Positions 2,420 to 32,165 of a stretch of 38,956 nucleotides of DNA are shown here, one piece after another; position 1 is the first letter of the stretch, and each line of letters begins with the position of its first letter. The position numbers and the translations under genes were made by a program. The notes under the pieces were generated by a model. The model searched no databases, was not told the origin of the DNA, and worked only from the letters and a program-made list of their open reading frames with translations. Location: NCBI GenBank assembly GCA_025353485.1, contig JANXQO010000068.1:1-38956 (forward strand). Reading direction: 5' to 3'. The stretch is from Chitinophagales bacterium. Lineage in GTDB: Bacteria; Bacteroidota; Bacteroidia; Chitinophagales; Chitinophagaceae.

Positions 2420-3562
2420 ATGAAATATTATATTATAGCAGGCGAGGCATCAGGAGACCTGCATGGCAGCAATCTTATCAAAGAATTAAAAAAGCTTGAC
2501 ACTGCAGCAGACATCAGGGCATGGGGCGGAGATAAAATGCAGGCCCTGGGAATCAAGCTTGTAAAGCATCACAAGGATCTTGCCTTTATGGGCTTTGCCG
2601 AAGTAATAAAAAATCTTCCAACCATAATTAAGAATTTGAATTATTGTAAGCAGGATATTTTAAACTACCATCCTGATGAGCTCGTTCTTATTGACTATCC
2701 CGGTTTTAATTTGCGGCTTGTAAAATGGGCTAAGGAAAATAATTTGAAAGTTATTTTTTATATCTCTCCCCAGGTATGGGCATGGAAAGAAAGCAGGGTA
2801 AGTCTTATAAAAAATTATGTTGACAAGATGATCGTCATCTTACCATTTGAAAAAGAGTTTTACAAAAAATTTAATTATGATGTGGAGTATGTCGGACATC
2901 CGTTAGTAAAAGTTGTAGAAGACTATAAACTGCAAAATCAGTTATCGGTTACTAATTACAAGTTACCGGCAACCGGCAACCGGCAACCGGCAACTGGCAA
3001 CATCATTGCCCTATTACCCGGCAGCCGTAAGCAGGAGATAAAAAGAAAACTCCCTGTTATGTTAGAAACATCAAAACATTTTCCTGAATATAATTTTATT
3101 GTTGCCAAAGCTCCGGGAATTACGGATGAGTTTTACAATACGTTTTTGGCTCCTTATAAAAATGTAAGTGCAGTTGCTGATCAAACCTATTCAATATTAA
3201 TACGCTCAAAAGCAGCATTGGTAACATCCGGCACAGCTACTCTGGAAACTGCCTTATTTGAAGTGCCTGAAATTGTTTGCTATAAAGCCGGCGAACTTTC
3301 TTACCAAATTGCAAGGCGGTTAATAAAGTTGAAATTTATCAGCCTGGTAAATCTTATTATGAATAAAGAAGTGGTAAAAGAACTTATTCAAAATGATCTT
3401 ACAGTTGAAAATAGTAAACACGAATTACACGAATTGCTAACGAACCCCACAAGACAAGAACAGATCAAAAATGATTACAGAGATCTGAAAAATTTATTAA
3501 GCCAGGGAGGAAATGCTTCAGCAAATGCAGCTAAAATTATTTATGATTTCACTAAAGTGTGA
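2420..3562 (+). CDS. lpxB: Lipid-A-disaccharide synthase LpxB
   Basis: A 380-residue GT19 glycosyltransferase that joins UDP-2,3-diacylglucosamine and lipid X to make the lipid A disaccharide at the inner membrane. Seen: GEASGDLHG (8-16), SPQVWAWKESR near 116, EYVGHPLVK near 158, LLPGSRKQEI and TSGTATLETAL, in LpxB order. Just before LLPGSRKQEI, residues of about 174-194 (QLSVTNYKLPATGNRQPATG) are low-complexity and encoded by nine heptamer units. They are a probable insertion, since other LpxB proteins have a short link here. Transcribed with surE and the small membrane protein. Confidence 0.93.
   Translation: MKYYIIAGEASGDLHGSNLIKELKKLDTAADIRAWGGDKMQALGIKLVKHHKDLAFMGFAEVIKNLPTIIKNLNYCKQDILNYHPDELVLIDYPGFNLRLVKWAKENNLKVIFYISPQVWAWKESRVSLIKNYVDKMIVILPFEKEFYKKFNYDVEYVGHPLVKVVEDYKLQNQLSVTNYKLPATGNRQPATGNIIALLPGSRKQEIKRKLPVMLETSKHFPEYNFIVAKAPGITDEFYNTFLAPYKNVSAVADQTYSILIRSKAALVTSGTATLETALFEVPEIVCYKAGELSYQIARRLIKLKFISLVNLIMNKEVVKELIQNDLTVENSKHELHELLTNPTRQEQIKNDYRDLKNLLSQGGNASANAAKIIYDFTKV
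2940..3002 (+). repeat. Family B heptamer array inside lpxB (nine units, 63 bp)
   Basis: Read in sevens from 2940, the sequence is AGTTATC, GGTTACT, AATTACA, AGTTACC, GGCAACC, GGCAACC, GGCAACC, GGCAACT, GGCAACA. Nine units make 63 bp, exactly 21 codons, so the frame is kept. The three perfect units in the middle would allow slippage, and a change of one unit would shift the lpxB frame. Confidence 0.85.
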
Positions 3563-3578
3563 GGCCATTAAAATGGCC
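3563..3578. terminator. Hairpin between convergent lpxB and the small DUF6728-like gene
   Basis: GGCCAT (3563-3568) and ATGGCC (3573-3578) form a hairpin immediately after the lpxB stop. There is no clear T run, so intrinsic termination is uncertain. It could serve either direction. Confidence 0.35.
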
Positions 3579-3591
3579 AGACACCTTAGTT

Positions 3592-3756
3592 TTATCTTCT
3601 TAAAAGTTTAATCACTATGATTATCAAAGCGAGTAAAAATAAAAGTATTGAAAGACGGTTGATCCCATGCATATAACCGATCCATTTGGTATGCGGACGA
3701 TCAGGGTTCTTCTTCTTTATGTATAAATATTCTGCTATTTGCCGCCACACTCCCAT
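3592..3756 (-). CDS. Small single-span membrane protein, DUF6728-like
   Basis: A 54-residue frame starting MGVWRQIAEYLYIKKKNPDR, followed by a middle MHGINRLSI and a hydrophobic tail of about 16 residues ending KLLRR. The N-terminal amphipathic part, the NPDRP motif, MHGINR and a single C-terminal helix match my memory of the small Bacteroidota DUF6728 family; function is unknown. It is below a usual length cut-off and easily missed. It converges with lpxB and diverges from msrB. Low-level coding quality (charged N-terminus, positive-inside tail) supports it as real. Confidence 0.65.
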   Translation of the reverse strand: MGVWRQIAEYLYIKKKNPDRPHTKWIGYMHGINRLSILLFLLALIIIVIKLLRR

Positions 3757-3842
3757 TGTAATTGTTTTAAGTTATCCTTAACCAATATGTAAAACCAAAG
3801 AAAAAAAATCGCCGTAAATTACTTAAATAAAAAATACATAAA

Positions 3843-4316
3843 ATGAAAATTATTTTAGCAGCTTTCACTTTCCTCCTTCTTGCAGGTTCAAGCTGTGCAC
3901 AAAAAAATAAAAAAATGGAAAATTTCGCCGTTGTTAAAACAGATGCCGAATGGAAAAAGCAGTTAACACCTGAACAATTTGCAGTTGCCCGCAAAGCAGG
4001 AACTGAAAATCCTTTCTCCGGAAAATTTTGGGATAATCATGAAAAAGGAATTTATAAGTGTGCGAGTTGCGGACAGGAACTATTTTTATCCGATACAAAA
4101 TTTGAAAGCGGAACAGGATGGCCAAGTTTTTATCAACCAATAAAAAAACAAAACGTTTTGGAAAAAACTGACAAAACTTTTGGTATGGCAAGAACAGAAG
4201 TGCTTTGCAGCCGTTGCGGTGCTCACTTAGGCCATGTATTTGACGATGGTCCGAAACCTACTGGGTTACGCTATTGTATGAATTCAGCGTCTATGGATTT
4301 TACAAAAACAAAATAA
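3843..4316 (+). CDS. msrB: Exported peptide-methionine (R)-S-oxide reductase MsrB
   Basis: 157 residues. The N-terminus ([20 protein letters not shown]) is a signal peptide; C18 could be lipidated, or signal peptidase I could cut after A19. The mature part has the two zinc pairs C73/C76 (CASCG) and C122/C125 (CSRCG), substrate-pocket [10 protein letters not shown] and the catalytic C145 in RYCMNSASM. MsrB reduces the R-epimer of methionine sulfoxide. The signal sequence places this copy outside the cytoplasm. It is followed convergently by a secreted peroxiredoxin and then by a molybdopterin enzyme pair, which suggests an envelope oxidative-damage repair group. Confidence 0.92.
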
Positions 4317-4328
4317 GTTTATAAATTC

Positions 4329-4910
4329 TTATAGATGATCCAGTATATCTTTTATGCTGGATCTTTTTCTATAATCAATATCAAAAAAGCGGTAAATGAT
4401 CCTGCCCTTTTTATTAACTACATAAACAGCAGGTACGGGCAGCGTTGCACCGTTGTTTCCGTTTGCTTTTAAAAAATCAATACCATAACCTTTATATTTT
4501 TCAACAGTTTTATCATCAACTTTAAAAGCAACTTTGTAGTCGTTCATAATTTTTAATCCAGCATCATATAAAATAGAATAAGAGGCTTTTGTTTTCTCAA
4601 TTGTTTTTGAAATATTCTCAGGCAATTCAGGAGTTATAGCAAAAACAGTTGCGCCTTTTTCCTTAATTAATCCAATCGAATCTTCCAGTTGCTTTAATTC
4701 TTTATTGCAATACGGGCACCATTGTCCGCGGTAAAATATCAGGACTACGTTTCCCTTTTTTAATTGTTTTTCCAGGTTTATCTTTTCACCTTTTTGATCA
4801 GTAGCTGTAAAATTGGGGGCATGGTCATTTACATCTAATCCCACAGGGAATGTTTGGGCTTGTAATTTTACACTGCTGGTAATAATTAAAAAGAATAATA
4901 ATTTTTTCAT
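4329..4910 (-). CDS. Secreted AhpC/TSA-type peroxiredoxin-like protein
   Basis: 193 residues: a signal peptide (about 1-19, MKKLLFFLIITSSVKLQAQT), then a thioredoxin-fold redoxin domain. The active-site segment FYRGQWCPYCNKEL (C65 and C68) is a peroxidatic-type CxxC, and VFAITPELPENISKT fits the peroxiredoxin-like AhpC/TSA family. It probably reduces peroxides or acts as a thiol oxidoreductase in the periplasm. It converges with msrB with a 12-bp gap and diverges from the cytochrome gene. The promoter-like TAGTTTTGC lies 14 bases before the ATG. Confidence 0.85.
   Translation of the reverse strand: MKKLLFFLIITSSVKLQAQTFPVGLDVNDHAPNFTATDQKGEKINLEKQLKKGNVVLIFYRGQWCPYCNKELKQLEDSIGLIKEKGATVFAITPELPENISKTIEKTKASYSILYDAGLKIMNDYKVAFKVDDKTVEKYKGYGIDFLKANGNNGATLPVPAVYVVNKKGRIIYRFFDIDYRKRSSIKDILDHL
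4337..4368 (+). terminator. msrB terminator embedded in the 3' end of the convergent peroxiredoxin gene
   Basis: GATCCAG (4337-4343) pairs with CTGGATC (4357-4363), followed by TTTTT (4364-4368). It is oriented to stop plus-strand transcripts from msrB, which ends at 4316. The whole structure lies within the last codons of the opposing gene. Confidence 0.6.
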
Positions 4911-4923
4911 GAAATAACTTTCA

Positions 4924-4932
4924 GCAAAACTA
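4924..4932 (-). promoter_or_regulatory. -7 box for the peroxiredoxin gene
   Basis: On the minus strand TAGTTTTGC matches TAnnTTTG followed by C, 14 bases before the ATG at 4910. The -33 element is not clear. Confidence 0.4.
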
Positions 4933-5047
4933 CTTTTTAATAGTTAAATAGATTTAGTAAAGTGATTTCAATCTGGATATTTACTCATTTCGTATCTTAC
5001 AATATCTATCTTTTTGATTTAATAAATTTGTTTATTAAATTGTTGTG

Positions 5048-5761
5048 ATGAAAACAATTGTAAAAAAACATCCGCTTGCAATACGCTGGTTTCATTGGAT
5101 AAATTTTCCGGTGTTGGCTGTAATGATTTGGAGTGGATTATTAATTTACTGGGCTAACGATATTTACAGGGTTGGCTGGGGTGATAAAACAGTTCTTAAA
5201 TTTTTTCCCGATTCATTTAATAAAGCACTCAACATCCCCTTCAGGCTGGCAGAGGGTATGAGCCTGCATTTCTTCTTCATGTGGTTCTTTGCCATAAATG
5301 GCTTTTTATATGTTTTATATTTATTTATTTCAGGAGAATGGAGATTGATCTTCCCCAATAAAAAATCTTTAAAAGAATCATGGCAGGTTGTGCTGCACGA
5401 TCTTCACATAAAGAAAAGAATGCCACCGCAAAAAAAATATAATGCGGCGCAACGCATTGCTTATACAGGTGTAATTTTTATGGGTATAGGTTCTTTGTTA
5501 ACAGGATTAGCCATTTATAAACCTGTTCAGTTTAATTTTTTATGCAACTTACTTGGCGGTTATGAATGGGCAAGAGCAGAACATTTTATTCTCACAATTC
5601 TTTTTACTTTATTTTTTCTTGTGCATATCATTCAGGTAATAATTGCAGGATGGAATAATTTCAGGGGAATAGTTACAGGTTTTGAAGTGAAACCCCCTAC
5701 GCCCCCGCCAGTTGGCGAAGGAACTATGGAAGTTCATCCTCTTAATGAATTAAAAAAATAA
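5048..5761 (+). CDS. Cytochrome b561-type membrane subunit paired with a molybdopterin enzyme
   Basis: 237 residues with four to five membrane segments and histidines placed as haem ligands: H8 and H16 in KKHPLAIRWFHWINF, H in SLHFFFMW, and two in AEHFILTILF and LVHIIQV. It likely carries electrons from the quinone pool to the periplasmic molybdenum enzyme encoded next; the stop and next start overlap by one base (TAATG). ATG 5048 was preferred to the GTG at 5045; TAAATTTG at 5023-5030 is a possible -7 box. The C-terminal tail after GFEV (PPTPPPVGEG) is encoded by a family A repeat, so the last 20 or so residues are probably not ancestral. Confidence 0.85.
   Translation: MKTIVKKHPLAIRWFHWINFPVLAVMIWSGLLIYWANDIYRVGWGDKTVLKFFPDSFNKALNIPFRLAEGMSLHFFFMWFFAINGFLYVLYLFISGEWRLIFPNKKSLKESWQVVLHDLHIKKRMPPQKKYNAAQRIAYTGVIFMGIGSLLTGLAIYKPVQFNFLCNLLGGYEWARAEHFILTILFTLFFLVHIIQVIIAGWNNFRGIVTGFEVKPPTPPPVGEGTMEVHPLNELKK
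5692..5725 (+). repeat. Family A palindromic repeat coding the tail of the cytochrome b protein
   Basis: A C-rich stretch (ACCCCCTACGCCCCCGCCA) is followed by a G-rich partner, with CGCCA/TGGCG arms at 5706-5710 and 5713-5717. It is translated in frame as PPTPPPVGEG. The peptide is very similar in style to [10 protein letters not shown], encoded by the same repeat type inside thyA. Confidence 0.65.
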
Positions 5762-6513
5762 TGACTGAAAAAGAAACAATAATTTCAGAAAAACAATTGA
5801 GAAAGAAAACAATAATTTCTTTTTCAGTTTTTATTGTGATGTTAGTACTTGCTGTAGTTGCATGGAAATGGCTTCACAAACAACCTGATGCAGATGGTGC
5901 TTTAAAACCTTTGCGTACAGTGTTAAATAATAATGAAAGAATTTTTTCAAATTTTTTCAGCAATAATCATCTTGCCAAAACATTTCCTGTTGGCGCTACT
6001 GTACATAAAGTAAGGGTGAATGGCAGCGAAGGTATGAGCCCGGATTTTGATGCTTCCAAATGGAAATTACAGGTAATAAAAAGTGCAGGAGATACTTTAT
6101 TTGTAACCCTTGATGAAATAAAAGCATTACCAAAAACAGAAATAGTTTTTGATTTTAAATGTATTGAGGGCTGGAGCCAGATAACACATTGGGGCGGTGT
6201 AAAGTTTTCTGATTTTGCAAAAAAATATAATCTCACTTCGCAAACACAAATGAATTATGTTGGTTTGATTACGCCTGATAAAGGTTATTATGTAGGGATA
6301 GACATGCCCGCTATCCTGCACCCACAAACACTCTTATGTTACGAAATGAACGGGAAATCATTGCCAATGAATCAGGGTTATCCCTTGCGATTAATCATTC
6401 CGGTTAAATATGGTATTAAGCATTTAAAAAGGATTGGGAGTATTTTCTTTAGTAATGAGCGTCCCGCTGATTACTGGTACGAAAGAGGATATGATTATTA
6501 TTCAGGGTTATGA
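5761..6513 (+). CDS. Membrane-anchored molybdopterin-dependent oxidoreductase (sulfite oxidase / MsrP fold)
   Basis: 250 residues. One N-terminal membrane anchor (about 18-38) is followed by a sulfite-oxidase-type Moco domain. The likely molybdenum thiolate ligand is C134 in DFKCIEGWSQITHWGGVKF, and the C-terminal signature GYPLRLIIPVKYGIKHLKRI fits the family. The best-known relative, MsrP (YedY), repairs periplasmic methionine sulfoxide with the haem protein MsrQ; here the partner is a b561-type cytochrome. The msrB gene nearby makes a repair role plausible, but the substrate is not shown by sequence. A canonical twin-arginine motif is not visible (QLRKKTIISF), which is odd for an exported Moco enzyme. 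Its 3' end overlaps the convergent LOG gene by 16 bases. Confidence 0.85.
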   Translation: MTEKETIISEKQLRKKTIISFSVFIVMLVLAVVAWKWLHKQPDADGALKPLRTVLNNNERIFSNFFSNNHLAKTFPVGATVHKVRVNGSEGMSPDFDASKWKLQVIKSAGDTLFVTLDEIKALPKTEIVFDFKCIEGWSQITHWGGVKFSDFAKKYNLTSQTQMNYVGLITPDKGYYVGIDMPAILHPQTLLCYEMNGKSLPMNQGYPLRLIIPVKYGIKHLKRIGSIFFSNERPADYWYERGYDYYSGL

Positions 6514-7277
6514 TCGTTAGAAAAAGGAAGTATTGATGAAACTTTTTGTAATCCTTTTTCAAAAAAGCCCCAGAAAGGTTTTGGTTGTTTTGCATATTGC
6601 AGTTTAAAACCAACAATGCTTTTTTCTTTTATATAATTAATAGCTTCTTCTATTGAATCTGTAACCAAATACAAACTTGGATCATTGGCAGAAATAGTTC
6701 CTTCTTTCATCATCCTTTCGTTATGTGCAAGCAGTTCTTTATGATATTCCTTATCAAAAATGATTATAGGAAATTTTTCTATTTTTTTTGTTTGAACTAA
6801 TGTGATTGCTTCAAAAAATTCATCCAGTGTTCCGAAACCGCCGGGCATTACAACAAATGCATAAGAGTATTTTACCAGTAAAACTTTTCTTACAAAGAAA
6901 AATTTCATGTTCACCCATTTATCAAGGTATGGATTTGGATGTTGTTCGATTGGCAATACAATATTGCAACCCACACTTCTGCCTCCAACTTCTTTTGCGC
7001 CACGGTTTGCAGCTTCCATTATTCCCGGGCCGCCACCGGTAATTATTGTAAAGCCAAGCTTGGCAATCCTGCCGGCAAGTTTTCTTGTTTGCTCATAATA
7101 AGGATGATCTTCTTTAAAACGTGCAGAACCGAATATTGTAACACAAGGCCCAACAAAGTGTAATGCTCTGAAGCCTTTTATAAATTCAAAAAAAACACTA
7201 ATGATATATTTAAAATCGTACCACCGGCTTTGAGGACCTTCTAAAAATTTTATTTCGCTTTTCGTTTCGCTTTTCAT
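6498..7277 (-). CDS. LOG family protein (TIGR00730-type Rossmann fold)
   Basis: 259 residues. GGGPGIMEAANRGA (81-94) and PGGFGTLDEFFE (145-156) are the two hallmark motifs of the lysine decarboxylase-like/LOG family. Characterised members release the base from nucleoside 5'-monophosphates (cytokinin-activating phosphoribohydrolases) or other nucleotides; the physiological substrate here is unknown. The protein is longer than the minimal LOG, with an N-terminal extension of about 40 residues and a C-terminal extension. It is convergent with the molybdopterin enzyme and lies downstream, on the same strand, of the fused E1 gene (124-bp gap). Confidence 0.88.
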   Translation of the reverse strand: MKSETKSEIKFLEGPQSRWYDFKYIISVFFEFIKGFRALHFVGPCVTIFGSARFKEDHPYYEQTRKLAGRIAKLGFTIITGGGPGIMEAANRGAKEVGGRSVGCNIVLPIEQHPNPYLDKWVNMKFFFVRKVLLVKYSYAFVVMPGGFGTLDEFFEAITLVQTKKIEKFPIIIFDKEYHKELLAHNERMMKEGTISANDPSLYLVTDSIEEAINYIKEKSIVGFKLQYAKQPKPFWGFFEKGLQKVSSILPFSNDHNPE

Positions 7278-7401
7278 TGTCTTTTATTATTTCTGAACGC
7301 TGATTGGGGGAGATTAAAAAGAGTATAAGAATAAAATATTACAATAGGTATTAATCTTTTTAATCAAACAAATCTACCTAAATGGTGGTTCAGACAATTC
7401 A

Positions 7402-9468: not shown

Positions 9469-9525
9469 GGCAACGAAATTACGGGAAGAAGTGTGAGAAG
9501 CTATAGGATTAACTCTTAATTTTCT

Positions 9526-9533
9526 TAACTTTG
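9526..9533 (+). promoter_or_regulatory. -7 box for the first toxin-antitoxin operon
   Basis: TAACTTTG matches TAnnTTTG and lies 7 bases before the ATG at 9541, implying a nearly leaderless transcript. Confidence 0.4.
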
Positions 9534-9540
9534 AAACACC

Positions 9541-9747
9541 ATGAAAGTATTACTAGATATAAAAGATAATAAAGTTGTACACCTGATAGAAGTGCTGAAA
9601 GGACTTTCCTATGTAAAGACTAAACCACTTGCTGATGAAAAGAGTTTGCGGATGGAAGAAATAAAAGAAGCCGTTGAATATCTTAAGCTGGTACGTAAAG
9701 GGAACCTCAAAGCCCGTCCTGCTAAAGAACTGTTAGATGAACTATAA
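9541..9747 (+). CDS. Antitoxin-like protein of a degraded RelE-type module
   Basis: 68 residues (MKVLLDIKDNKVVHLIEVLK to ARPAKELLDEL), acidic and helix-rich with a C-terminal PAKELLDEL typical of Bacteroidota antitoxins that precede RelE/ParE toxins. The next frame begins at 9737, inside this gene (11-base overlap), a coupling typical of type II toxin-antitoxin pairs. That downstream toxin is cut short, so this antitoxin is now an orphan unless it cross-neutralises the toxin at 10043. Family assignment rests on size, context and overlap. Confidence 0.6.
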   Translation: MKVLLDIKDNKVVHLIEVLKGLSYVKTKPLADEKSLRMEEIKEAVEYLKLVRKGNLKARPAKELLDEL

Positions 9748-10908: not shown

Positions 10909-10965
10909 CAATGTTTTTTTTATAAAAATAATTTTAGTAGTTTTTGATAAAGCTAAATAAAATCT

Positions 10966-14758: not shown

Positions 14759-14786
14759 CATAATTCATAACGCATAATTCATAACT
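14759..14786 (+). repeat. Family B heptamer array in the sucA-sucB spacer (four units)
   Basis: Read in sevens from 14759: CATAATT, CATAACG, CATAATT, CATAACT. Four units, 28 bp, the same length as the arrays in sucB and the RsmB-like gene. Confidence 0.75.
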
Positions 14787-14803: not shown

Positions 14804-16054
14804 ATGGCAATAGAAATAAAAGTTCCTTCTGTGGGTGAAAGCATTACTGAAGTAACCCTTGTAAAATGGTTAAGGCAAAATGGTGATTATGTCGAAAGAG
14901 ATGAGGTGATTGCCGAGCTGGAAAGTGAAAAAGCTACATTTGAGATTAATGCACAACAGGCCGGAATTTTAACCACAGTTGCCAACGAAGGTGACACATT
15001 AAAGATCGGTGATGTTGCCTGCCGGATAGACGATTCCGCTGCCCGTCCTGAAAAGCCTGCAGAGAAAAAGACTGAACAAAAAGCTGAAGGGAAAAAAGCA
15101 GAATCTAAAAAGAGTGAACAATCAAAAGAAAAAGAAATTTCAACATCGAACATCGAACATCGAACATCGGACATTAAAGCAACACCTGTAGCTGCCGCAA
15201 TTTTAGCTGATAAAAAAGTAGATATAAAAAATATTACTCCAAGCGGATCTAATGGAAAGATATTAAAGCATGATGTGCTTGACGCTTTATTAAATCCGGG
15301 CAGAAGCATTGGCCATCCTATGTTTAGCAGGGATGATAAGCCTGAGAAGATGAGCAATCTGCGCAAAACAATAAGCAGGAGATTGGTAGAAGCAAAAAAC
15401 ACAACAGCCATGCTTACCACTTTTAATGAAGTGGACATGAGCGCAATAATGGATCTGCGAACTAAGTACAAGGAAGTGTTTAAAAAACAACATGAAACCA
15501 ATCTTGGCTTCATGAGTTTTTTTACAAAAGCTATTTGTTTTGGTTTGCAGGAATGGCCAACTGTAAATGCAATGATAGATGGAGAAAATATTATTCATCA
15601 TAATTATTGTGATATATCCATTGCTGTTTCTGCCCCAAAAGGTTTGGTAGTACCCGTAATAAGAAACGCTGAAAGCCTTAGTATGGCTGAGATTGAGAAG
15701 AAGGTTGTTGAACTGGCAACCAAGGCAAAAGAAAATAAACTCACGATTGAAGAAATGACCGGAGGAACTTTTACAATTACCAATGGAGGCGTTTTTGGTT
15801 CATTGATGAGCACACCTATAATAAATATTCCGCAGTCTGCTATTTTAGGGATGCACAAAATACTGGAGAGGCCTGTTGCTATTAACGGCCAGGTTGTAAT
15901 TAAACCTATGATGTATTTAGCGCTTAGTTATGATCACAGGATTATTGATGGTCGTGAATCTGTAAGTTTTTTAGTAAGAGTAAAAGAAATGCTGGAAAAT
16001 CCTGAACAATTGCTTTTTGGTCAAGATCCGATGAAAGCGTTGCTGGAATTATAA
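14804..16054 (+). CDS. sucB: Dihydrolipoyl succinyltransferase (2-oxoglutarate dehydrogenase E2)
   Basis: 416 residues. One lipoyl domain (1-76; lipoylated K43 in [11 protein letters not shown]), a Lys/Glu-rich linker (about 82-125), a peripheral subunit-binding domain (about 128-162, [16 protein letters not shown]), a second linker, and a catalytic domain ending [17 protein letters not shown] with the HxxxDG active site. It transfers succinyl to CoA in the OGDH complex. It follows sucA; E3 is not in the window. The first linker contains a family B heptamer array (residues 114-123). Confidence 0.96.
15144..15171 (+). repeat. Family B heptamer array in the sucB linker (four units)
   Basis: CATCGAA three times, then CATCGGA. 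It is translated in frame as [10 protein letters not shown] within the flexible linker between the lipoyl and subunit-binding domains. Confidence 0.8.
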
Positions 16055-16119: not shown

Positions 16120-17295
16120 ATGAGCGTCTTTCATTCACATTTAAATTCCGCTATTGCCATTCTAAAATCATACAATGGCAATGAACCATTTCATCTTTAT
16201 GTAAAAAAATATTTCTCTGCCAACAAAAAATTTGGATCAAGAGATAGAAAACAGGTCACTTCTCTCTGCTACAATTATTTTCGTTTAGGCAATGCAGTTA
16301 AAAATTTTTCTGTTGAAGAAAGGATAGCGCTTGCAACATTTTTATGTGAGACTAAATCATCTGATTTTTTAAAAACTATAAAGCCTGAATGGAATGATCT
16401 GGCAGAGGAACCAATTAAAGAAAAACTTTCTATTGTCTTTCCACAATTTTCTATTCAAAATATTTTTCCTTATAAAGATGAATTAAGCGAAGGCATTGAT
16501 GCGGAAAAATTCAACGCATCATTTTTAATTCAGCCTGATCTTTTTTTAAGAGTCCGTCCTGGTAATAATAAAAGAGTAACTGGAAAGCTTGCAGGAGCAG
16601 GGATTTCGTACAAATTAATAAATGAAAATTGTATAGTACTTCCCAATTCATCAAAAATAAATGATGTATTGGAATTGGATAAGGAAGCAGTAGTGCAGGA
16701 TTATAATTCGCAAAGAGTTGCTGAGTTTATTCAATTAAAAACTACAAACCACAAACTACAAACCTCCGTATGGGATTGTTGTGCAGCCAGCGGTGGTAAA
16801 TCAATTATGGCGTACGACATTAATCCAAATATTGAATTAACGGTAAGTGATAAAAGGGAACCTATTTTAGAGAATTTGAAAAAACGTTTTGCAAAAGCGG
16901 GCATAAAAAAATATCATTCATTTGTTGCAGACCTTTCAAACAATCAGGCCGCTTTCAGTGCCCAGGCGGTAAAATTCGATCTTATTATTTGTGATGCTCC
17001 CTGCACGGGTTCAGGAACATGGGCAAGAACTCCTGAGCAATTATTTTATTTTAAAAAAGATTTGATTGAAAAATATGCAGGTCTGCAAAATAAAATTTTA
17101 GAAAATATTATTCCGCATATAAAACCCGGAGGCCATCTGTTATATATTACCTGCTCGGTTTTTAAAAAAGAAAATGAAGAGGTTGTGACCTATGTAACAG
17201 AAAAATTGAATTTGCGATTACAAAGAATGGAAATATTAAAAGGCTATGAAATGAAAGCTGATACTATGTTTGCGGCATTATTTATTGCTGCGTAA
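16120..17295 (+). CDS. RsmB/NOP-family SAM-dependent RNA cytosine-5 methyltransferase
   Basis: 391 residues. An N-terminal NusB-like/RNA-binding region is followed by the methyltransferase core: WDCCAASGGKSIMAYD (SAM motif I), SDKRE, the catalytic motifs DAPCTGSGTW and YITCSVFKKENEEV. The two cysteines (PC and TC) are those used by m5C methyltransferases of rRNA or tRNA; the exact target is not evident. Residues 207-216 (KTTNHKLQTS), just before motif I, come from a heptamer array. The gene is convergent with the T9SS protease. Confidence 0.88.
   Translation: MSVFHSHLNSAIAILKSYNGNEPFHLYVKKYFSANKKFGSRDRKQVTSLCYNYFRLGNAVKNFSVEERIALATFLCETKSSDFLKTIKPEWNDLAEEPIKEKLSIVFPQFSIQNIFPYKDELSEGIDAEKFNASFLIQPDLFLRVRPGNNKRVTGKLAGAGISYKLINENCIVLPNSSKINDVLELDKEAVVQDYNSQRVAEFIQLKTTNHKLQTSVWDCCAASGGKSIMAYDINPNIELTVSDKREPILENLKKRFAKAGIKKYHSFVADLSNNQAAFSAQAVKFDLIICDAPCTGSGTWARTPEQLFYFKKDLIEKYAGLQNKILENIIPHIKPGGHLLYITCSVFKKENEEVVTYVTEKLNLRLQRMEILKGYEMKADTMFAALFIAA
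16739..16766 (+). repeat. Family B heptamer array inside the RsmB-like gene (four units)
   Basis: AAACTAC, AAACCAC, AAACTAC, AAACCTC. It lies in frame directly before SAM motif I, at a place where related enzymes have a short loop. Confidence 0.8.
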
Positions 17296-23400: not shown

Positions 23401-23409
23401 AATATTCTT

Positions 23410-23928: not shown

Positions 23929-23935
23929 AAAATTT

Positions 23936-24730: not shown

Positions 24731-24763
24731 ATTTTCAATATCTTACGGCCATATTTTGTTACT

Positions 24764-25888: not shown

Positions 25889-26030
25889 ATCTCCCGAAGG
25901 GGGACTTTTGAAAGGCTATAATAATTGTATGATCTTAAAAAATATAGAAAGTAAATGTTGACAAAAAACATTTTTTAATAATTTATAAACTTAAAAATAG
26001 TCCTGAAGTTTCGGGATTTGGAGGGGCTTA
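25879..26030. repeat. MITE-like foldback between pntAA and pntAB with family A ends
   Basis: The left end (25879-25910) reads CCCCCTAAATCTCCCGAAGG and the right end (26001-26030), when reversed, reads AAGCCCCTCCAAATCCCGAA. Imperfect terminal inverted copies therefore enclose about 90 AT-rich bases, including a small AATGTT/AACATT hairpin. The left end overlaps the pntAA stop and the right end finishes 4 bases before the pntAB ATG. No coding frame is inside. Confidence 0.65.
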
Positions 26031-26034
26031 ATTT

Positions 26035-26355
26035 ATGCAAAACATTCTTCAATGGATAACCAATAATCAACAAACGATATACATTGTTATCCTGATGATA
26101 TTTGTTGGGATAGAAGTTATCGGCAGAGTGCCAAGTGTATTGCATACACCGCTAATGAGTGGTGCGAATGCCATACACGGAGTAGTTATCATCGGTGCGA
26201 TCATTGTAATGGGCAAAGCAGAAACAGATAATTATTTAGCATTGATCCTCGGTTTTCTTGCAGTAATATTAGGAACACTGAATGTTGTTGGAGGTTTTGT
26301 TGTTACTGATAGAATGCTGGAGATGTTTAGTTCTAAGAAAAATTCTAAAAAATAA
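26035..26355 (+). CDS. pntAB: NAD(P) transhydrogenase subunit alpha, membrane part
   Basis: 106 residues with three to four membrane helices; HTPLMSGANAIHGVVIIGAI is the conserved transmembrane motif of domain II alpha and FLAVILGTLNVVGGFVVTDRML ends the unit. It forms the proton channel with PntB. The final KKNSKK and stop overlap the left end of the four-helix-bundle cassette, so the tail may be acquired. Confidence 0.93.
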   Translation: MQNILQWITNNQQTIYIVILMIFVGIEVIGRVPSVLHTPLMSGANAIHGVVIIGAIIVMGKAETDNYLALILGFLAVILGTLNVVGGFVVTDRMLEMFSSKKNSKK

Positions 26356-26799
26356 CTCCTAAATTCTAAATGAGCGAAGAAAGAAAAATTCTAAAAAATA
26401 AACTCTAAATTTTAAAATGAGTGAAGAAAAAAAATATGATCTGGAAGAAAGAACAGAAAGATTTTCATTAAGAGTTAGAGATTTGTGCAGGTTGTTAAAA
26501 CAGGACATCATTAATGAGAATACATAATTCAATTAATAAGAGCAGCAGGTTCAGTAGGAGCAAATTATATAGAGGCAAATGATAAATTAGGAGAAAAAGA
26601 TTTAAGGTTTAGAATAAGGATAAGTAAAAAAGAAGCGAAAGAAACAAAGTATTGGTTAAAACATATCATGACTTATGATGTTATTGAGCTGGAAGAACAA
26701 CGATTAATATTATTACAGGAGGCTGATGAGTTAATGAAAATATTTGCTGCAATTCTTAGAAAACTAGGAGATTAATTTTTAGAATTTAGAGTTTTTATT
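26341..26799. mobile_element. Inverted-repeat-flanked cassette with a four-helix-bundle gene, inserted in the pnt operon
   Basis: Left: AACTCTAAATTTTAAAA (26401-26417), just before the ATG. Right: TTTTTAGAATTTAGAGTTTT (26776-26795), just after the stop, whose reverse complement begins AAAACTCTAAATTCTAAAAA. The two ends are imperfect inverted repeats enclosing exactly one frame. On the left the end is duplicated: 26341-26386 and 26387-26434 are direct copies that each include ATGAG(C/T)GAAGAA. The cassette fills the whole pntAB-pntB spacer. Confidence 0.65.
26417..26775 (+). pseudogene. Four-helix bundle (S23/IVS-type) protein, frameshifted
   Basis: The first frame reads MSEEKKYDLEERTERFSLRV ... 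LKQDIIN and then stops. Shifting by one base near 26513-26517 restores EYIIQLIRAAGSVGANYIEA, then KEAKETKYWLKHIMTYDVIE and a regular stop at 26773-26775. RAAGSVGANYIEA and KEAKETKYWL are hallmarks of the four-helix bundle family first known from 23S rRNA intervening sequences. One missing base explains the break, either a real mutation or an assembly error. Full length would be about 119 residues. Its cellular role is unknown; related proteins are small, basic and helical. Confidence 0.85.
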
Positions 26800-28230
26800 A
26801 TGGACTTAAATCTATTAACGATATGTTATTTGATTGGCTCGGTAACTTTTATACTAGGATTAAAAATGTTATCTAATCCTGCAACGGCACGAAGAGGAAA
26901 TTTAATTGCTGCAGCCGGCATGCTCATTGCAATTGGTGGAACAATATTTTTATATCGCAATACTGAAACAGGCGATCATCTTCATAATTATGCATGGATA
27001 TTCGGTGGATTATTAATTGGCGGTGTTATAGGAACTTTAGCCGCACGAAAAGTAAAAATGACTGCCATGCCGGAGATGGTAAGTTTATTTAACGGCATGG
27101 GTGGCGCCTGTGCTGCTCTTATTTCTTTGGTTGAGTTCAACCATCTTTCCAGAGAACTTTATAGTAATTACAGTGCTGAGTATATAAGCAGTATTCAGCC
27201 AACAGTTTTAATTATTGTATTAGGTCTTATTATTGGTTCGGTTTCTTTTGCAGGCAGTATAATCGCCTGGGGAAAATTAAATGGTAAGGTGAAAGATTTT
27301 AGTTTCACCGGACAGAATATTCTTAATCTTATAATATTGGCTGTTGCACTTGGTGCCGGTGCATTTTTGGTAATTCACCCTGAACATAATTTTTTGTTGT
27401 ACGCAATTCTTGCATTGGCATTAACGTACGGAGTGCTGTTTGTTATGCCCATTGGCGGTGCAGATATGCCTGTGGTAATATCTCTTTTAAATTCTTTTAC
27501 AGGAGTTGCTGCGGCTTGCGGTGGGTTTTTGTATAATAACAAAGTAATGCTAACCGGGGGAATATTAGTTGGCGCTGCAGGTACCCTTCTTACAATTTTG
27601 ATGTGCAAGGCAATGAACAGAAGTTTAATAAATGTATTGGTAGGTTCCTTTGGAGGCAGCAATAATTCTGCTTCCATTTCCGGTGGAAAGGACCAGGGCA
27701 ATTATAAAGAAATATCATTGAGCGATGCGGCTATGTTGATGAGCTATGCAACTAAAGTGATGATAGTTCCCGGCTATGGACTGGCTGTAGCGCAGGCACA
27801 GCATGCCTGTCATGAACTTGAAAAAGTGCTGACGGAAAAAGGTGTTGAAGTAAATTATGCCATACATCCTGTTGCAGGCAGAATGCCGGGCCACATGAAT
27901 GTATTACTTGCAGAAGCTGATGTGAGTTATGAAAAATTAGAAGACATGGAACAGGCTAATGATGAATTTAAAACCACCGATGTTGTGCTGATACTGGGCG
28001 CTAATGACGTAGTAAATCCTGCTGCTAAAAATGATCCTGATTCTCCCATATACGGTATGCCTATTTTAGAAGTGGAACTGGCAAAAAATATTATTGTAAA
28101 CAAAAGAAGTATGAAGCCCGGTTATGCAGGAATAGAAAATGATCTTTTTTTTCAGCCAAAAACCTCTATGCTTTTTGGTGATGCAAAAAAAGTATTGCAG
28201 GATTTGTTGAATGAGGTTAAAAATGTATAG
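26800..28230 (+). CDS. pntB: NAD(P) transhydrogenase subunit beta
   Basis: 476 residues. An N-terminal membrane domain of about eight to nine helices (LGLKMLSNPATARRGN, MPEMVSLFNGMGGACAALIS) is followed by the NADP-binding domain III: VMIVPGYGLAVAQAQHAC, HPVAGRMPGHMNVLLAEA, LGANDVVNPAAKNDP and VNKRSMKPGYAGIEN. It carries the NADP site and most of the proton channel. A cassette of about 450 bp separates it from pntAB. Its stop TAG is directly followed by a family A repeat. Confidence 0.96.
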   Translation: MDLNLLTICYLIGSVTFILGLKMLSNPATARRGNLIAAAGMLIAIGGTIFLYRNTETGDHLHNYAWIFGGLLIGGVIGTLAARKVKMTAMPEMVSLFNGMGGACAALISLVEFNHLSRELYSNYSAEYISSIQPTVLIIVLGLIIGSVSFAGSIIAWGKLNGKVKDFSFTGQNILNLIILAVALGAGAFLVIHPEHNFLLYAILALALTYGVLFVMPIGGADMPVVISLLNSFTGVAAACGGFLYNNKVMLTGGILVGAAGTLLTILMCKAMNRSLINVLVGSFGGSNNSASISGGKDQGNYKEISLSDAAMLMSYATKVMIVPGYGLAVAQAQHACHELEKVLTEKGVEVNYAIHPVAGRMPGHMNVLLAEADVSYEKLEDMEQANDEFKTTDVVLILGANDVVNPAAKNDPDSPIYGMPILEVELAKNIIVNKRSMKPGYAGIENDLFFQPKTSMLFGDAKKVLQDLLNEVKNV

Positions 28231-28270
28231 CCCACTCTAAATCTCCCCCAACAGGGGAGACTTCCGAAGT
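28228..28270 (+). repeat. Family A repeat abutting the pntB stop codon
   Basis: TAGCCCACTCTAAATCTCCC starts at the pntB stop and is followed by CCAACAGGGGAGACTTCCGA, giving a CTCCCC/GGGGAG stem. It is nearly the same sequence as the copy at the pntAA stop (CCCCCTAAATCTCCC). Confidence 0.8.
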
Positions 28271-28289
28271 TTTAAAAGAATGGCAATGG

Positions 28290-28400
28290 ATGCCATTTTA
28301 TGAAAGATTATTTCTTTATGCTTTTTGTAACTTTCATTTGATGAAACTTATTATGGAAAAGCAAGAATCACTTGCAACAAAAGAGCTAAAGAATGGATAA
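28290..28400 (+). pseudogene. Short orphan frame after pntB
   Basis: 36 residues (MPFYERLFLYAFCNFHLMKL to ELKNG). The frame stays open upstream through EVLKEWQW into the repeat. It looks like the C-terminal end of a longer protein, but I cannot name it. It may be a remnant brought in or left behind with the repeat. Confidence 0.25.
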
Positions 28401-28402
28401 AT

Positions 28403-28430
28403 AAAAAGCCCCTCCGATATCGAAAGGGCC
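28403..28430 (-). terminator. Terminator of the DUF1573 operon
   Basis: On the minus strand GCCCTTTCGAT and ATCGGAGGGGC form an imperfect stem centred on ATATCG-type symmetry and are followed by TTTTTAT. It lies about 20 bases after the stop of the minus-strand DUF1573 gene. Confidence 0.55.
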
Positions 28431-28451
28431 TGGTCTGTAATAATTTTTATC

Positions 28452-28997
28452 CTAAGATTTTACTGTATTTTTTTCTATAACCTTCTTGCCTTTCTTAATC
28501 TTTACTTTTGTGGTGGTGCCGGTTGTTTTATTTTCTGTCTTTACTTTATCATCTTTCACTTTTACTGATGTTTTATCATCTGTTGTTTTGTTGGCGGCAG
28601 CCCATGTGTCATAAGCAGCAGGCTCCATTACTTCACCTGCAAGATTGATCTGTTTTATTTCATCAACACCGGCAAATTTTACGGTTAGTGTTTTATGAAT
28701 TCCTCCAATTGAAGAAGCATTATAAGTTGCTTTGATAATGCCTGTTTGCCCTGGTGCAATAGGTGATTTTGTATAATCAGAAATAGTACATCCGCAGGTT
28801 GGATTAGCTGCTTCAATTATCAAAGGTTCCTTGCTAATATTGGTAACTACAAAAGTTGCTGTAGCAGGAACACTTTGCTTTATTTTTCCAAAGTCAAAAG
28901 TTTCTGTGCTTAATTTAGCCACATCAGCTGCTTTCTTTTGTGCAAAAACTGCAGTTGCAAAAGTAAAAGCCATCAAAGAGAATAATAATTTTTTCAT
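28452..28997 (-). CDS. Secreted DUF1573 protein
   Basis: 181 residues from ATG 28997; the in-frame extension to 29090 is rejected because MKKLLFSLMAFTFATAVFAQ is a clear signal peptide. One DUF1573 Ig-like domain: TETFDFGKIKQSVPATATFV, NPTCGCTISDYTKSPIAPGQ and GIIKATYNASSIGG. The Cys-Gly-Cys segment is a family feature. The tail is Lys/Thr-rich (KTENKTTGTTTKVKIKKGKK) and low-complexity. Function of the family is unknown. It follows a paralogue by 26 bp. Confidence 0.85.
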   Translation of the reverse strand: MKKLLFSLMAFTFATAVFAQKKAADVAKLSTETFDFGKIKQSVPATATFVVTNISKEPLIIEAANPTCGCTISDYTKSPIAPGQTGIIKATYNASSIGGIHKTLTVKFAGVDEIKQINLAGEVMEPAAYDTWAAANKTTDDKTSVKVKDDKVKTENKTTGTTTKVKIKKGKKVIEKNTVKS

Positions 28998-29023
28998 TTT
29001 AAGAGGAGTTTTATAGTTTAAAT

Positions 29024-29539
29024 TTAGTATTGATTTTTTAAAGTTCCTAATCCGGAATTTTCCGGGGCAGAAGTGGTAGGTGTTTTCCATACATCACCCT
29101 TTATATTGATTTGTTTTGTTTGCTTTCCGTTGTATGTAACGGTAATAAATTTTGTAAAGGGTCCGTCGTTCATGGCATTGTACCCCACGGTTATTTTAGA
29201 TGTTGCGCCGACAGGTATTGCATCTTTGCTCCATTCCGGTGTAGTACAACCGCAACTTGCCTGTACATTATCTAAAACCAAAGGCGTTGTGCCTGTATTT
29301 GTATAAGTAAAAACGTGGGTTACCGGTTTGCCTTGAGGAATTTTGCCAAAATCGTATTCAGTTTCTTTTAAAGAGATAACTTCGGGAGCAGGTTCAATTG
29401 ATTTATTTTTTGAATCTTCAGGTTTTTTTATCGTATCCTGTACATTCTCCTTTGCATTAGGTGGTAATGTAAGATTTGTTTGTGCACTTGCTACATAAGT
29501 AAACAACAAAGCGCAATAAAGAGTAAATATTTTTTTCAA
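29024..29539 (-). CDS. Secreted DUF1573 protein (paralogue)
   Basis: 171 residues: signal peptide (MKKIFTLYCALLFTYVASAQ), an acidic linker, then DUF1573: KETEYDFGKIPQGKPVTHVF, NVQASCGCTTPEWSKDAIPV and KITVGYNAMNDG. It shares the order of motifs with the gene immediately downstream and probably arose from it by tandem duplication. An exact TATCTTTG box lies 20 bases upstream of the start, so this gene likely heads a two-gene operon. Confidence 0.87.
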   Translation of the reverse strand: MKKIFTLYCALLFTYVASAQTNLTLPPNAKENVQDTIKKPEDSKNKSIEPAPEVISLKETEYDFGKIPQGKPVTHVFTYTNTGTTPLVLDNVQASCGCTTPEWSKDAIPVGATSKITVGYNAMNDGPFTKFITVTYNGKQTKQINIKGDVWKTPTTSAPENSGLGTLKNQY

Positions 29540-29559
29540 TGCTTTTTTATTAGGAATTT

Positions 29560-29567
29560 CAAAGATA
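29560..29567 (-). promoter_or_regulatory. -7 box of the DUF1573 operon
   Basis: On the minus strand TATCTTTG, an exact TAnnTTTG match, lies 20 bases before the ATG at 29539. Confidence 0.45.
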
Positions 29568-29638
29568 CAAAAACGAATTTAATGGCTCTAAATTGTGAAC
29601 AGGTTATCAGATTTTTAACAATCATCAGCCATTATTAA

Positions 29639-29646
29639 TATTTTTG
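29639..29646 (+). promoter_or_regulatory. -7 box of the second fused E1 gene
   Basis: TATTTTTG followed by C lies 5 bases before the ATG at 29652, suggesting a leaderless or nearly leaderless mRNA. Confidence 0.4.
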
Positions 29647-29651
29647 CTAGT

Positions 29652-32021
29652 ATGCATACAGTTGACATCACTAAAGCTTCACTTGAAAAATTATCTTTTG
29701 ATACTTTTAGAGAAGAAATTTTAAGAGATTATCGTGTGGTTTGTGAGAGCCGGGAAGCCAGTTTATTAGGGCGTAAAGAAGTATTGACAGGCAAAGCGAA
29801 ATTTGGGATTTTTGGCGATGGAAAAGAAGTTGCCCAGGTTGCTATGGCAAAGTTTTTCAACAATGGTGATTTTCGTGCCGGTTACTACCGTGATCAAACT
29901 TTTATGTTTGCTGCAGGCCTCTCAACTGTTGAACAATTCTTTTCACAATTATTTTCTGATCCTGATTTAAATCATGATCCTTTTAGTGCAGGCAGGCAAA
30001 TGAATTCACACTTTGCTACAAAGTTTGTTGATGAGAGCGGGGAATGGCTTGACCTCGCAAATAAAAAAAATGTATCAGCAGATATTGCACCCACTGCCGG
30101 GCAAATGCCAAGAGCTTTGGGGCTGGCATTCGCATCAAAATTATTCAGAAATGAAAAAACATTCCGGGAGTTTACAAATTTAAGTGACAATGGAAATGAG
30201 ATATGTTTTTGCACCATTGGTGATGCATCCACTTCCGAAGGACATTTTTGGGAAACAATTAATGCAGCAGGAGTACTGCAGGTTCCCCTTGCAGTTTTTG
30301 TATGGGATGATGGTTATGGAATATCTGTTCCTAAAAAATATCAAACTACTAAAGAATCTGTTTCAAAAGCATTGCAAGGTTTTCAGAAAGAAGAAAATAC
30401 TAATGGCATAACTATTTACAAACTAAAGGGATGGGATTATGCCGGTATGTGCGAAGTGCTGGAAAGTGCAATTAAAGAAATGCGGAAAACCCATATTCCT
30501 GCGTTATTTCATGTGGAGGAGATAACACAGCCACAGGGACATTCAACCTCAGGCAGCCATGAGCGGTATAAGGAGCAGGGACGTTTGGAGTGGGAGAAAA
30601 AATGGGATTGTATAAAACAAATGAAAGAATGGATACTCACCAATGCACTTGCCGAACAAGATGAATTGGAACAGATTGAAATAGAATCAAAAGAATTTGT
30701 AAGAGAAAGTAAAAAAAATGCATGGGAAAAATATAATGATCCCATAAAACAGCAGGTTAATAAATGTGTTGAGATGTTGAGTAGTTTAGAAGTTGAGAAG
30801 CCTGAGATAAAAAAAATCGCAGATGAATTATCCCCTAACAGAGAACCGCAGAGAAGAGATGTAATGAAAGCTTTAGCAGCGGCTATTGAACTAGTAACAA
30901 ATAACCAGCAACTCGTAACTTATTACTCACAACTTACAACAGAAAACGCAGCGCTTTTTAACAGCCACTTATACAACGAAGGACCAAAATCAGCACTAAA
31001 AGTTGCAGAGATAAAACCTTATTTTAAAAATGATGCACCAACAGTAAATGGATACGAAGTGTTGAACAGATATTTTGATGAGCTGTTTGCTGCCAATAAA
31101 AAAGTAATTGCATTTGGCGAAGATCTTGGCTTTATCGGCGACGTTAACCAGGGCTTTAGCGGCCTGCAAAAAAAATATGGAGACAACAAAATTTTTGATA
31201 CCGGTATAAGAGAACTTACCATCATGGGGCAGGGGATAGGCCTGGCTTTACGGGGATTGCGGCCTATTGCTGAAATTCAATATCTTGATTATTTATTATA
31301 CGGATTGCAGCCTTTGAGTGATGATGTGGCAACCACTCATTTTAGAACAAAAGGCCAGCAAAGTTGCCCGCTGATTGTTCGTACACGGGGGCACCGGCTG
31401 GAAGGTATATGGCACAGCGGCTCACCAATGGGGATGACAATAAATGCATTGCATGGAATGTTTGTTTGTGTTCCGCGTAATATGGTGCAGGCTGTTGGTA
31501 TGTACAATACTTTACTACAGGGAAATGATCCTGCAATAATTGTTGAATGCCTTAATGGTTATCGTTTAAAAGAAAAACTTCCATCTAATTTAATTGAATA
31601 TACCATACCGCTAGGAGTGCCTGAAATTATAAAAGAGGGAATTGATATTACTATGGTAACGTATGGTTCCACTGCACGCATTGTTCAGGAGGCTGCAGAA
31701 ATTTTAGATACCTTAAAAATAAGCTGCGAGATTATTGATGTACAAACTTTATTACCTTTTGATATCAGCCACAAAATTCTTGCGTCATTAAAAAAGACAA
31801 ATCGTATTGTATTTATTGATGAAGATGTACCCGGAGGAGCCACAGCATTTATGTTTAATAAAGTGATGGAAGAACAGGGGGGGTATAAATATCTTGATGT
31901 TTCTCCAAGAACAATAACAGGAAAAGCACACCGTCCTTCTTATGGTACTGATGGAGATTATTTTAGCAAACCCAATGTAGAAGATGTTATCAGGGTAGTG
32001 AAAGAGATGATGGCGGAATAA
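29652..32021 (+). CDS. Second fused alpha/beta 2-oxoacid dehydrogenase E1
   Basis: 789 residues. The alpha half has GYYRDQTFMFAAGL, SADIAPTAGQMPRALG and the thiamine diphosphate motif GDASTSEGHF (190-199) to FVWDDGYGISVP (216-227). The usual Asn-Asn (QNN) at the metal site is Asp-Asp here. The beta half (from about 460) has FGEDLGFIGDVNQGF, DTGIRELTIMGQGIGLALRG and EIQYLDYLLYGLQPL. It belongs to the 2-oxoacid dehydrogenase E1 superfamily but differs from the E1 at 7402; substrate unknown. The linker between halves (413-433) is made of nine heptamer units. Confidence 0.88.
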   Translation: MHTVDITKASLEKLSFDTFREEILRDYRVVCESREASLLGRKEVLTGKAKFGIFGDGKEVAQVAMAKFFNNGDFRAGYYRDQTFMFAAGLSTVEQFFSQLFSDPDLNHDPFSAGRQMNSHFATKFVDESGEWLDLANKKNVSADIAPTAGQMPRALGLAFASKLFRNEKTFREFTNLSDNGNEICFCTIGDASTSEGHFWETINAAGVLQVPLAVFVWDDGYGISVPKKYQTTKESVSKALQGFQKEENTNGITIYKLKGWDYAGMCEVLESAIKEMRKTHIPALFHVEEITQPQGHSTSGSHERYKEQGRLEWEKKWDCIKQMKEWILTNALAEQDELEQIEIESKEFVRESKKNAWEKYNDPIKQQVNKCVEMLSSLEVEKPEIKKIADELSPNREPQRRDVMKALAAAIELVTNNQQLVTYYSQLTTENAALFNSHLYNEGPKSALKVAEIKPYFKNDAPTVNGYEVLNRYFDELFAANKKVIAFGEDLGFIGDVNQGFSGLQKKYGDNKIFDTGIRELTIMGQGIGLALRGLRPIAEIQYLDYLLYGLQPLSDDVATTHFRTKGQQSCPLIVRTRGHRLEGIWHSGSPMGMTINALHGMFVCVPRNMVQAVGMYNTLLQGNDPAIIVECLNGYRLKEKLPSNLIEYTIPLGVPEIIKEGIDITMVTYGSTARIVQEAAEILDTLKISCEIIDVQTLLPFDISHKILASLKKTNRIVFIDEDVPGGATAFMFNKVMEEQGGYKYLDVSPRTITGKAHRPSYGTDGDYFSKPNVEDVIRVVKEMMAE
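30889..30951 (+). repeat. Family B heptamer array in the E1 inter-domain linker (nine units, 63 bp)
   Basis: Read in sevens from 30889: AACTAGT, AACAAAT, AACCAGC, AACTCGT, AACTTAT, TACTCAC, AACTTAC, AACAGAA, AACGCAG. AAC or TAC opens every unit. Nine units equal 21 codons, the same length as the array in lpxB. The sequence is diverged, so the array is old or was never perfect. Confidence 0.75.
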
Positions 32022-32030
32022 AACAAATCG

Positions 32031-32165
32031 GCAATAAGCAATAAGCAATAGCAATACGAAATTGGAATAGAATCCCTAACATTAAGAAATGGCAGCAAGG
32101 AATGTAAACAATCCCGACAAATATTAATCACCAATTTGCTTATTGCCTATTGTCAATTGCTTATT
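32031..32165. repeat. Heptamer arrays as inverted arms in the E1-phzF spacer
   Basis: Left arm: GCAATAA, GCAATAA, GCAATA(-), GCAATAC (32031-32057). Right arm: GCTTATT, GCCTATT, GTCAATT, GCTTATT (32138-32165; four units, 28 bp). The arms are complementary (AATAAGC against GCTTATT) with about 80 bases between them, so a long hairpin can form just after the E1 gene; the right arm ends in a T run. Confidence 0.7.

Follow-up and report, generated by a model that had tools for sequence, protein, structure and literature searches.

How do tandem arrays of seven-base units come to lie in frame inside conserved genes, and why do close relatives hold different units at the same place? The question is raised by contig JANXQO010000068.1 of a Chitinophagales bacterium, analysed here as one stretch of 38,956 nt (the window), where an earlier note made from the sequence had pointed to such arrays at six places: in lpxB, the sucA-sucB spacer, sucB, an RsmB-like gene, a fused E1 gene, and the E1-phzF spacer. 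Read in sevens, all six do carry period-7 sequence. Arrays with this period are spread over the genome, occupy orthologous sites in sister species, often with other units, use words that differ between lineages, and are paired as inverted copies more often than expected. This description we hold firmly. The best reading is that they may be a Bacteroidota relative of the known heptamer repeats, the short tandemly repeated repetitive (STRR) sequences and the TAACTGA repeats, and the different words found in the same loop of sister species point to a fast, little-studied rewriting of protein loops.

The window is part of a 3.82-Mb assembly in 189 contigs (G000), and its LpxB is nearest to the LpxB of Chitinophagaceae and Ferruginibacter metagenome-assembled genomes (84, 79, 69, and 68% identity). 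The genomes compared below include two sister species (G015 and G008) and a member of another genus of the family (G023).

Heptamer Arrays in the Window

When the window was scanned at periods 2-30, six segments were found at period 7, four at period 14, and at most two at every other period. The arrays, with the matches reported by Tandem Repeats Finder (TRF), are these:

2937..2967 (-), first arm in the lpxB loop: degenerate heptamers of GTTAYCG type, opposite in orientation to the AAC unit
2968..3002 (+), second arm in the lpxB loop: heptamers GGCAACC and GGCAACT, translated as ATGNRQPATGN; TRF 2965-3001, period 7, score 67
14759..14786 (+), sucA-sucB spacer: CATAATT/CATAACG array, two 14-bp units; TRF period 14, score 54
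15142..15174 (+), sucB linker: AACATCG array; TRF period 7, score 59
16733..16766 (+), linker of the RsmB-like gene: AAACYAC array encoding QLKTTNHKLQT; TRF period 7 at 16739-16764
30889..30951 (+), fused E1 gene, linker between the two halves: degenerate AACTNNN array; autocorrelation 12.4 only
32026..32056 (+), E1-phzF spacer, forward arm: GCAATAA heptamers; TRF 32031-32056, score 45; autocorrelation 13.6
32136..32165 (-), E1-phzF spacer, partner of the forward arm in inverted orientation: heptamers of TTGCCTA type; weak TRF match, period 7, score 32

The arrays of lpxB, sucB, and the sucA-sucB spacer are strong, that of the RsmB-like gene is moderate, and those of E1 and the E1-phzF spacer are weak. 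No TRF report was obtained for the E1 array, and its autocorrelation alone is weak; the orthologue in G015 has AACTCAC units at the same place, with a strong score of 39.0. By inspection the lpxB array is not uniform: units of GTTAYCG type give way to units of CGGCAAC type, in an inverted arrangement. The inverted arm in the E1-phzF spacer likewise matches its forward arm (score 15.5, gap 85). In alignments the sucA-sucB spacer of G015 has a related shorter run and that of G008 none, nor was the E1-phzF spacer array seen in G008.

As had been claimed, the array interrupts the reading frame in none of the four genes, and the arrays fall in linkers or loops. The sucB array lies between the Biotin_lipoyl (Pfam 4-75) and E3_binding (Pfam 124-159) matches and the E1 array between the E1_dh and Transket_pyr Pfam matches, while that of the RsmB-like gene immediately precedes a Pfam methyltransferase match and that of LpxB occupies a loop flanked by GHPL and LLPGSR. 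The window also holds a 46-bp unit in 2.2 copies (89%) at 26335-26435, which is not a heptamer array.

Abundance and Size of the Arrays

For the genome-wide scan 101 stretches were used, the window among them, with 1.43 Mb of sequence letters in all and 35% GC. Period-7 segments numbered 81, 52, and 19 at scores of at least 12, 14, and 20, against 5, 2, and 0 in one first-order shuffle of the sampled sequence. The harmonics were enriched as well (period 14: 58, 32, and 6 segments; period 21: 32, 10, and 2), while the other periods from 3 to 21 gave at most 21 segments each at a score of at least 12, and those from 3 to 20 other than 7 and 14 at most eight each at 14 or more. The heptamer family is thus found genome-wide. 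Eight of the sampled contigs were masked over more than half their length, and the first batch of stretches was picked in part on contigs with a pattern match, in a search where the control, itself a period-7 pattern, gave 17 matches against 15 for the pattern. Array densities are therefore somewhat biased, but the contrast between periods should not be.

The sizes fared differently. At a period-7 autocorrelation score of at least 13 the scan lists 68 arrays, with three units in five of them, four in 23, five in 19, six in 12, seven in five, eight in two, and nine in two. Where the earlier note expected peaks at four and nine units there is a single broad peak at 4-6, and exactly 28 bp and exactly 63 bp are each the length of one array in 68. 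Array lengths form a continuum, and the claim of a family with fixed sizes of 28 and 63 bp is refuted.

Unit Words, Dialects, and Inverted Partners

The view that units differ between arrays is too simple. Among the 68 arrays there are 40 unit classes, and sharing is far beyond expectation, with 94 array pairs of identical unit against 4.9 for random genomic heptamers (maximum 16 in 2000 draws). The commonest unit, AAACTAC, accounts for 12 arrays, and AAC occurs in 38 of the 68 units where 15.9 would be expected. Variation between units clusters at certain phases (z 6.05), which is also expected if blocks of two units are copied. Two further ideas were discarded: transition-only variation, suggested by the pattern AACYSRY, because adjacent units in the 68 arrays differ by 167 transitions and 182 transversions, and a likeness to integron core sites, whose consensus did not fit the units by eye.

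The unit words form lineage-specific dialects. This was seen in 20 genomes, in counts of overlapping pattern matches on both strands rather than of arrays. Three copies of AAACTAC with at most two mismatches matched 42 times in G000, 33 in G008, twice in G019, once in G007, and not at all in G003 and G016 (10 of the 20 genomes had any), with control counts of 4 in G000, 1 in G008, 0 in G019, and 4 in G003. The pattern for GCAATNN arrays is distributed otherwise: 80 matches in G019, 39 in G003, 20 in G007, 15 in G000, 4 in G015, and 3 in G008 (12 of 20 genomes), the controls being 0.

Inverted partner arms within 200 bp were found for 12 of 69 against 2.1 expected, some pairs being counted from both sides, while direct partners were not enriched (2 against 1.2). 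By the same test most arrays have no inverted partner. Paired inverted arms also occur in the stretches of G023, and a waaA-like gene of G015 (L349) has, at the site of the array at L030:2132, forward ACGTSAA units in frame, then a spacer, then TTCACGT units in inverted orientation, which places the two arms of a hairpin inside a conserved gene.

Position in Genes and Reading Frame

Genes were called with a purpose-made simple hexamer caller (1320 genes, coding fraction 0.878), and the calls are rough. Inside genes lie 23 of the 68 arrays, and for 22 of these the gene has a coding score of 60 or more; the other 45 fall in spacers or on gene edges, against an expectation of about 12%. Over the three frames genic arrays have 1.04 stops per array in the sense direction and 2.43 in antisense, while other arrays have 2.92 per strand. 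Four genic arrays have the exact AAACTAC consensus, and in each of them the AA strand is the one that is read; the opposite strand has stops.

Since seven is coprime to three, a heptamer array free of stops reads as the same cycle of seven residues in every frame, and gain or loss of three units (21 bp) keeps the frame. The cycles expected by arithmetic, NYKLQTT for AACTACA and ATGNRQP for AACCGGC, are seen in peptides of unrelated genes. At L033 the same 31-bp heptamer array is found twice, 1.6 kb apart (6878-6908, and one copy at 5267-5302), once genic and once in a spacer, possibly copied along with a tandem paralogue.

Spread Among Relatives

Outside G000 the period recurs in the family. 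In 100 kb of G023 there are five period-7 segments at score 14 and one segment in total at the other periods from 5 to 16, and the loci of the four window genes in congeners (257 kb) contain 11 at period 7, nine at period 14, and five at period 15. The same four-gene loci in other families of the order (142 kb) hold one period-7 segment, which is not above periods 11, 13, and 14. Among 80 named LpxB loci all eight period-7 segments fall in the nearest 16 (L076-L091). Three copies of AACYSRY match in 91 of 395 Bacteroidota genomes sampled, the control, itself a period-7 pattern, not being empty; arrays of this kind thus seem patchy across Bacteroidota.

Arrays at Orthologous Sites

LpxB, SucB, the RsmB-like protein, and E1 were searched in 38 relatives, up to 30 loci being taken per search, and 13 further array-bearing proteins in G008 and G015, eight of the 13 also in six more genomes. 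The names gltX, waaA, cysS, pdxJ, pyrD, selU, and PDH-E2 were assigned by reading the sequences, not by search. The comparison comprises 19 genic sites, that is, the 23 genic arrays with a score of at least 13 minus five (two in L031, one in L044, one in L063, and the array at L030 13486, which shares a loop with that at L030 13441), plus E1 at 12.4. A period-7 score of at least 10, by the same measure as in G000, counted as an array in an orthologue. Some genes could not be found in some of the genomes, so that out of 38 possible sister cells 34 were filled, along with 53 more distant ones; SucB of G023 was dropped since no residues aligned. Three genes share the label '?' in the table of loop lengths, where they are merged, and were told apart in the count of shared sites.

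In 21 of 34 comparisons the orthologous site of a sister species also has a period-7 array, as against 16 of 1163 control windows elsewhere in the same proteins. For more distant genomes the figures are 6 of 53 and 6 of 1842. The units at these shared sites mostly differ: in best rotation on the same strand, their distance is at least two in 18 of the 27 array-bearing comparisons and 0 or 1 in nine, pdxJ and pyrD between sisters being examples of the latter. Orthologues with the same residues minus the repeats are not the rule; mostly there are other residues, and often another heptamer array. The E1 linker of G008 is a case where similar residues are kept and the period is weaker (9.8).

The gltX site illustrates the change of words, with GGTTACC units in G000, AGTTGNC in G015, GTTTCAC in G008, and CAATGGG in G003; five further genomes are without a clear array, one of them, G016, having what looks like a decayed one. 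The RsmB-like site has AAACYAC in G000, AAATCWS (AAATCAG/AAATCTC) in G015, and ACATCNN in G003. At the pyrD site AAACTAC is found in all three sisters, G000 included, and ACTCACC in G023, and no array in G016, G003, G007, and G001. In lpxB, G015 and G008 also have arrays, and G019, G016, G003, G007, G001, and G023 have none. When LpxB loops were read more widely (81 loci, three without a loop match, leaving 78), arrays were found in six including the window, with at least four kinds of unit; the arrays in the L076 and L077 loops are those of G015 and G008, and these loci may come from the same assemblies.

Other sequences of insertion-like appearance were noted in the same loops. The LpxB loop of L109, L110, and L104 has TPNPSPEERG or TPNPSPKERG, apparently one more inserted element, and linkers with arrays in G000 hold SFPPSGDRG in sucB of G015 (L218) and PLRCFSSSGDEK in lpxB of G023 (L259). 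A near-palindrome of 21 bp, CCTGCCTGNCNGNCAGGCAGG, is found in frame in lpxB of G015 (L247:1823), in the RsmB-like gene of G003 (L190:2115), and in a PDH-E2-like gene of G015 (L361:1657), where it encodes ACLPDRQG, LPVRQAG, and LPAGQAG. It is present in six of 20 genomes of the genus, at 19 places in G015 and five in G000, and looks like a second, palindromic in-frame element, similar to the palindromic elements of Rickettsia.

Insertion or Replacement

An array might be a plain insertion into a loop, and the lengths bear this out only in part. The compared region of LpxB is 38 residues in G000, 40 in G015, and 27 in G008, against 25 in four array-free genomes; the waaA region is 30-47 residues with an array and 24-29 without. 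E1 of G015 is 21 bp longer than that of G000, and pdxJ of G000 and G008 has six residues more than the array-free genomes. The pdxJ of G003, however, has 24 residues, equal to the array-free genomes, the pyrD region is 28 residues with an array and 28 or 26 without, and the gltX region is 28 residues in nine of nine genomes despite its four different arrays. Several arrays are thus length-neutral, so the arrays are not simply insertions, and some replace a loop.

Origin of the Arrays

We lean, if only a little, towards the view that these are dispersed, degenerate heptanucleotide tandem arrays of the STRR or long-simple-sequence-repeat type, many of them AAC-cored, which are rewritten by seven-base misalignment and draw on a word pool of the lineage. 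Misalignment by seven bases in replication or repair, whether by slippage, by slipping and realigning, or by template switching, including onto inverted copies, would write arrays recurrently, with units taken from a pool that differs between lineages. Such steps could account for the period, for growth by whole units, and, with realignment, for array change in blocks. Most arrays would stay in spacers, while selection would remove those with stops or in structured regions, so that genic ones survive in permissive loops and linkers; an array within a loop may then turn over as a block or be swapped for another, giving different units at one site in sisters. We infer both the writing step, for which slippage or template switching has about even odds, and selection as the filter.

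Several results weigh against this view. Local slippage alone leaves the shared units at unlinked loci and the lineage dialects unexplained, so a spreading step would also be needed, which could be template switching between arrays at different loci. The length-neutral arrays of gltX, pyrD, and pdxJ in G003 go beyond what slippage alone gives, and the LpxB region is long without an array in G019 (35 residues) and G023 (41). An array is present at the sucB site in none of seven orthologues scored and at the L033 site in neither of two sisters. Register between sisters is at most suggestive of descent from one array: the best shift is uniquely zero in 7 of 14 left-anchored and 3 of 14 right-anchored comparisons (about two by chance), and in six more distant comparisons in none (left) and two (right). 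The substitutions between adjacent units are nothing exotic.

The arrays could instead derive, as remnants or as arms, from a small hairpin element inserted by a transposase, similar to repetitive extragenic palindromic sequences or miniature inverted-repeat transposable elements, the heptamers being its ends. This we find unlikely, although the roughly sixfold enrichment of inverted partners, the paired arms in G023 and, in frame, in waaA of G015, and families expanded only in some lineages would all suit it. The continuous lengths, the partnerless majority, and the different units at orthologous sites do not; no constant ends were noticed, and no search was made for target duplications or enzymes.

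Doubtful, too, is the bolder idea that in Chitinophagaceae, and perhaps in more Bacteroidota, an active process overwrites short stretches of DNA, loops included, with heptamers of the lineage vocabulary, often at constant length, so that whole loops of core enzymes would be replaced in frame between sister species; a dedicated polymerase or template would do this. As for the activity itself, a polymerase that copies a seven-base internal or RNA template and fills gaps with tandem heptamers would explain length-neutral replacement, as at gltX, and genome-wide dialects together. The diversity of units within one genome does not look like one template, and we regard such an activity as improbable. 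We know of no enzyme or template that writes heptamers, and no search was aimed at one.

Functional sites are about equally improbable. Under this explanation the arrays bind an RNA- or DNA-binding protein and the genic copies are by-products, in line with what has been proposed for TAACTGA (MacGregor, 2015; PMC4679880). Two thirds of the arrays are non-coding or at gene edges, and the AAC core and the phase-clustered variation would be in keeping with a binding site; phase clustering is, however, likewise expected from block copying. Array contexts relative to start codons are mixed, with no fixed distance apparent in the rough gene calls, there are many unrelated units, and the two spacer arrays of the window were not seen in G008. 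Nor was any evidence seen of a job for the arrays in their host proteins, at which no test was aimed. Chance, with AT-rich loops full of N, Q, K, and T that only look periodic in a genome of low GC, is refuted by the shuffled sequence and by the control windows.

On the preferred reading of recurrent seven-base misalignment, the arrays point to mutation that swaps whole blocks in the loops of conserved enzymes, instead of single substitutions, and that is frame-safe by arithmetic. If it is general in Bacteroidota, it would affect protein alignments and supply new loop sequence, and the question of why seven is a favoured repeat length would become testable across species with different dialects.

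Comparison with Known Repeat Systems

The STRR sequences of cyanobacteria are tandem repeats of seven-base units in several families, with unit words that probably differ from those found here. The likeness to heptanucleotide repeats of other phyla claimed in the earlier note agrees with the period-7 enrichment and with the same word occurring at many unlinked loci. Unit switching at orthologous coding loops has to our knowledge not been reported for STRR sequences.

The statement that no Bacteroidota family had been described was too strong. TAACTGA repeats, mostly intergenic, are reported from Beggiatoaceae, Cyanobacteria, and five Bacteroidetes, in two to many tandem copies, and close relatives may lack them (MacGregor, 2015; PMC4679880). 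Other heptamers occur beside TAACTGA in some Bacteroidetes, some cases lie in open reading frames, mostly at protein ends, and repeats upstream of start codons are the proposed sites for RNA- or DNA-binding proteins (MacGregor, 2015). The arrays described here are alike in being tandem heptamers mostly outside genes, with some in open reading frames, and rotated TAACTGA (AACTGAT) is present in a mixed array of G000 and in other Bacteroidota. The TAACTGA system has a single fixed word, and related words are rare in the main genome, while here the units are degenerate and fall into 40 classes; and a third of the arrays here are genic, in internal loops, where orthologous sites hold different words. 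Among long simple sequence repeats with units of 5-11 nt, heptanucleotides are the commonest class in most genomes; slippage of the polymerase was proposed, and multiples of three were noted as likeliest in coding regions (Mrazek et al., 2007, as cited in PMC4679880). The genic third of the heptamer arrays departs from that expectation.

In the literature searched no account was found of orthologous protein loops that hold different heptamer arrays, which is weak evidence as most subscription journals lay outside the search. Rickettsia palindromic elements are short DNA that survives in frame inside conserved genes; the arrays resemble them in this survival and differ in being tandem heptamers of changing sequence, while the Rickettsia elements are palindromic and conserved in sequence. 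The contingency repeats of phase variation are also tandem repeats in genes, but in the present arrays frames stay open, the hosts include housekeeping enzymes, and no on/off switch would be expected.

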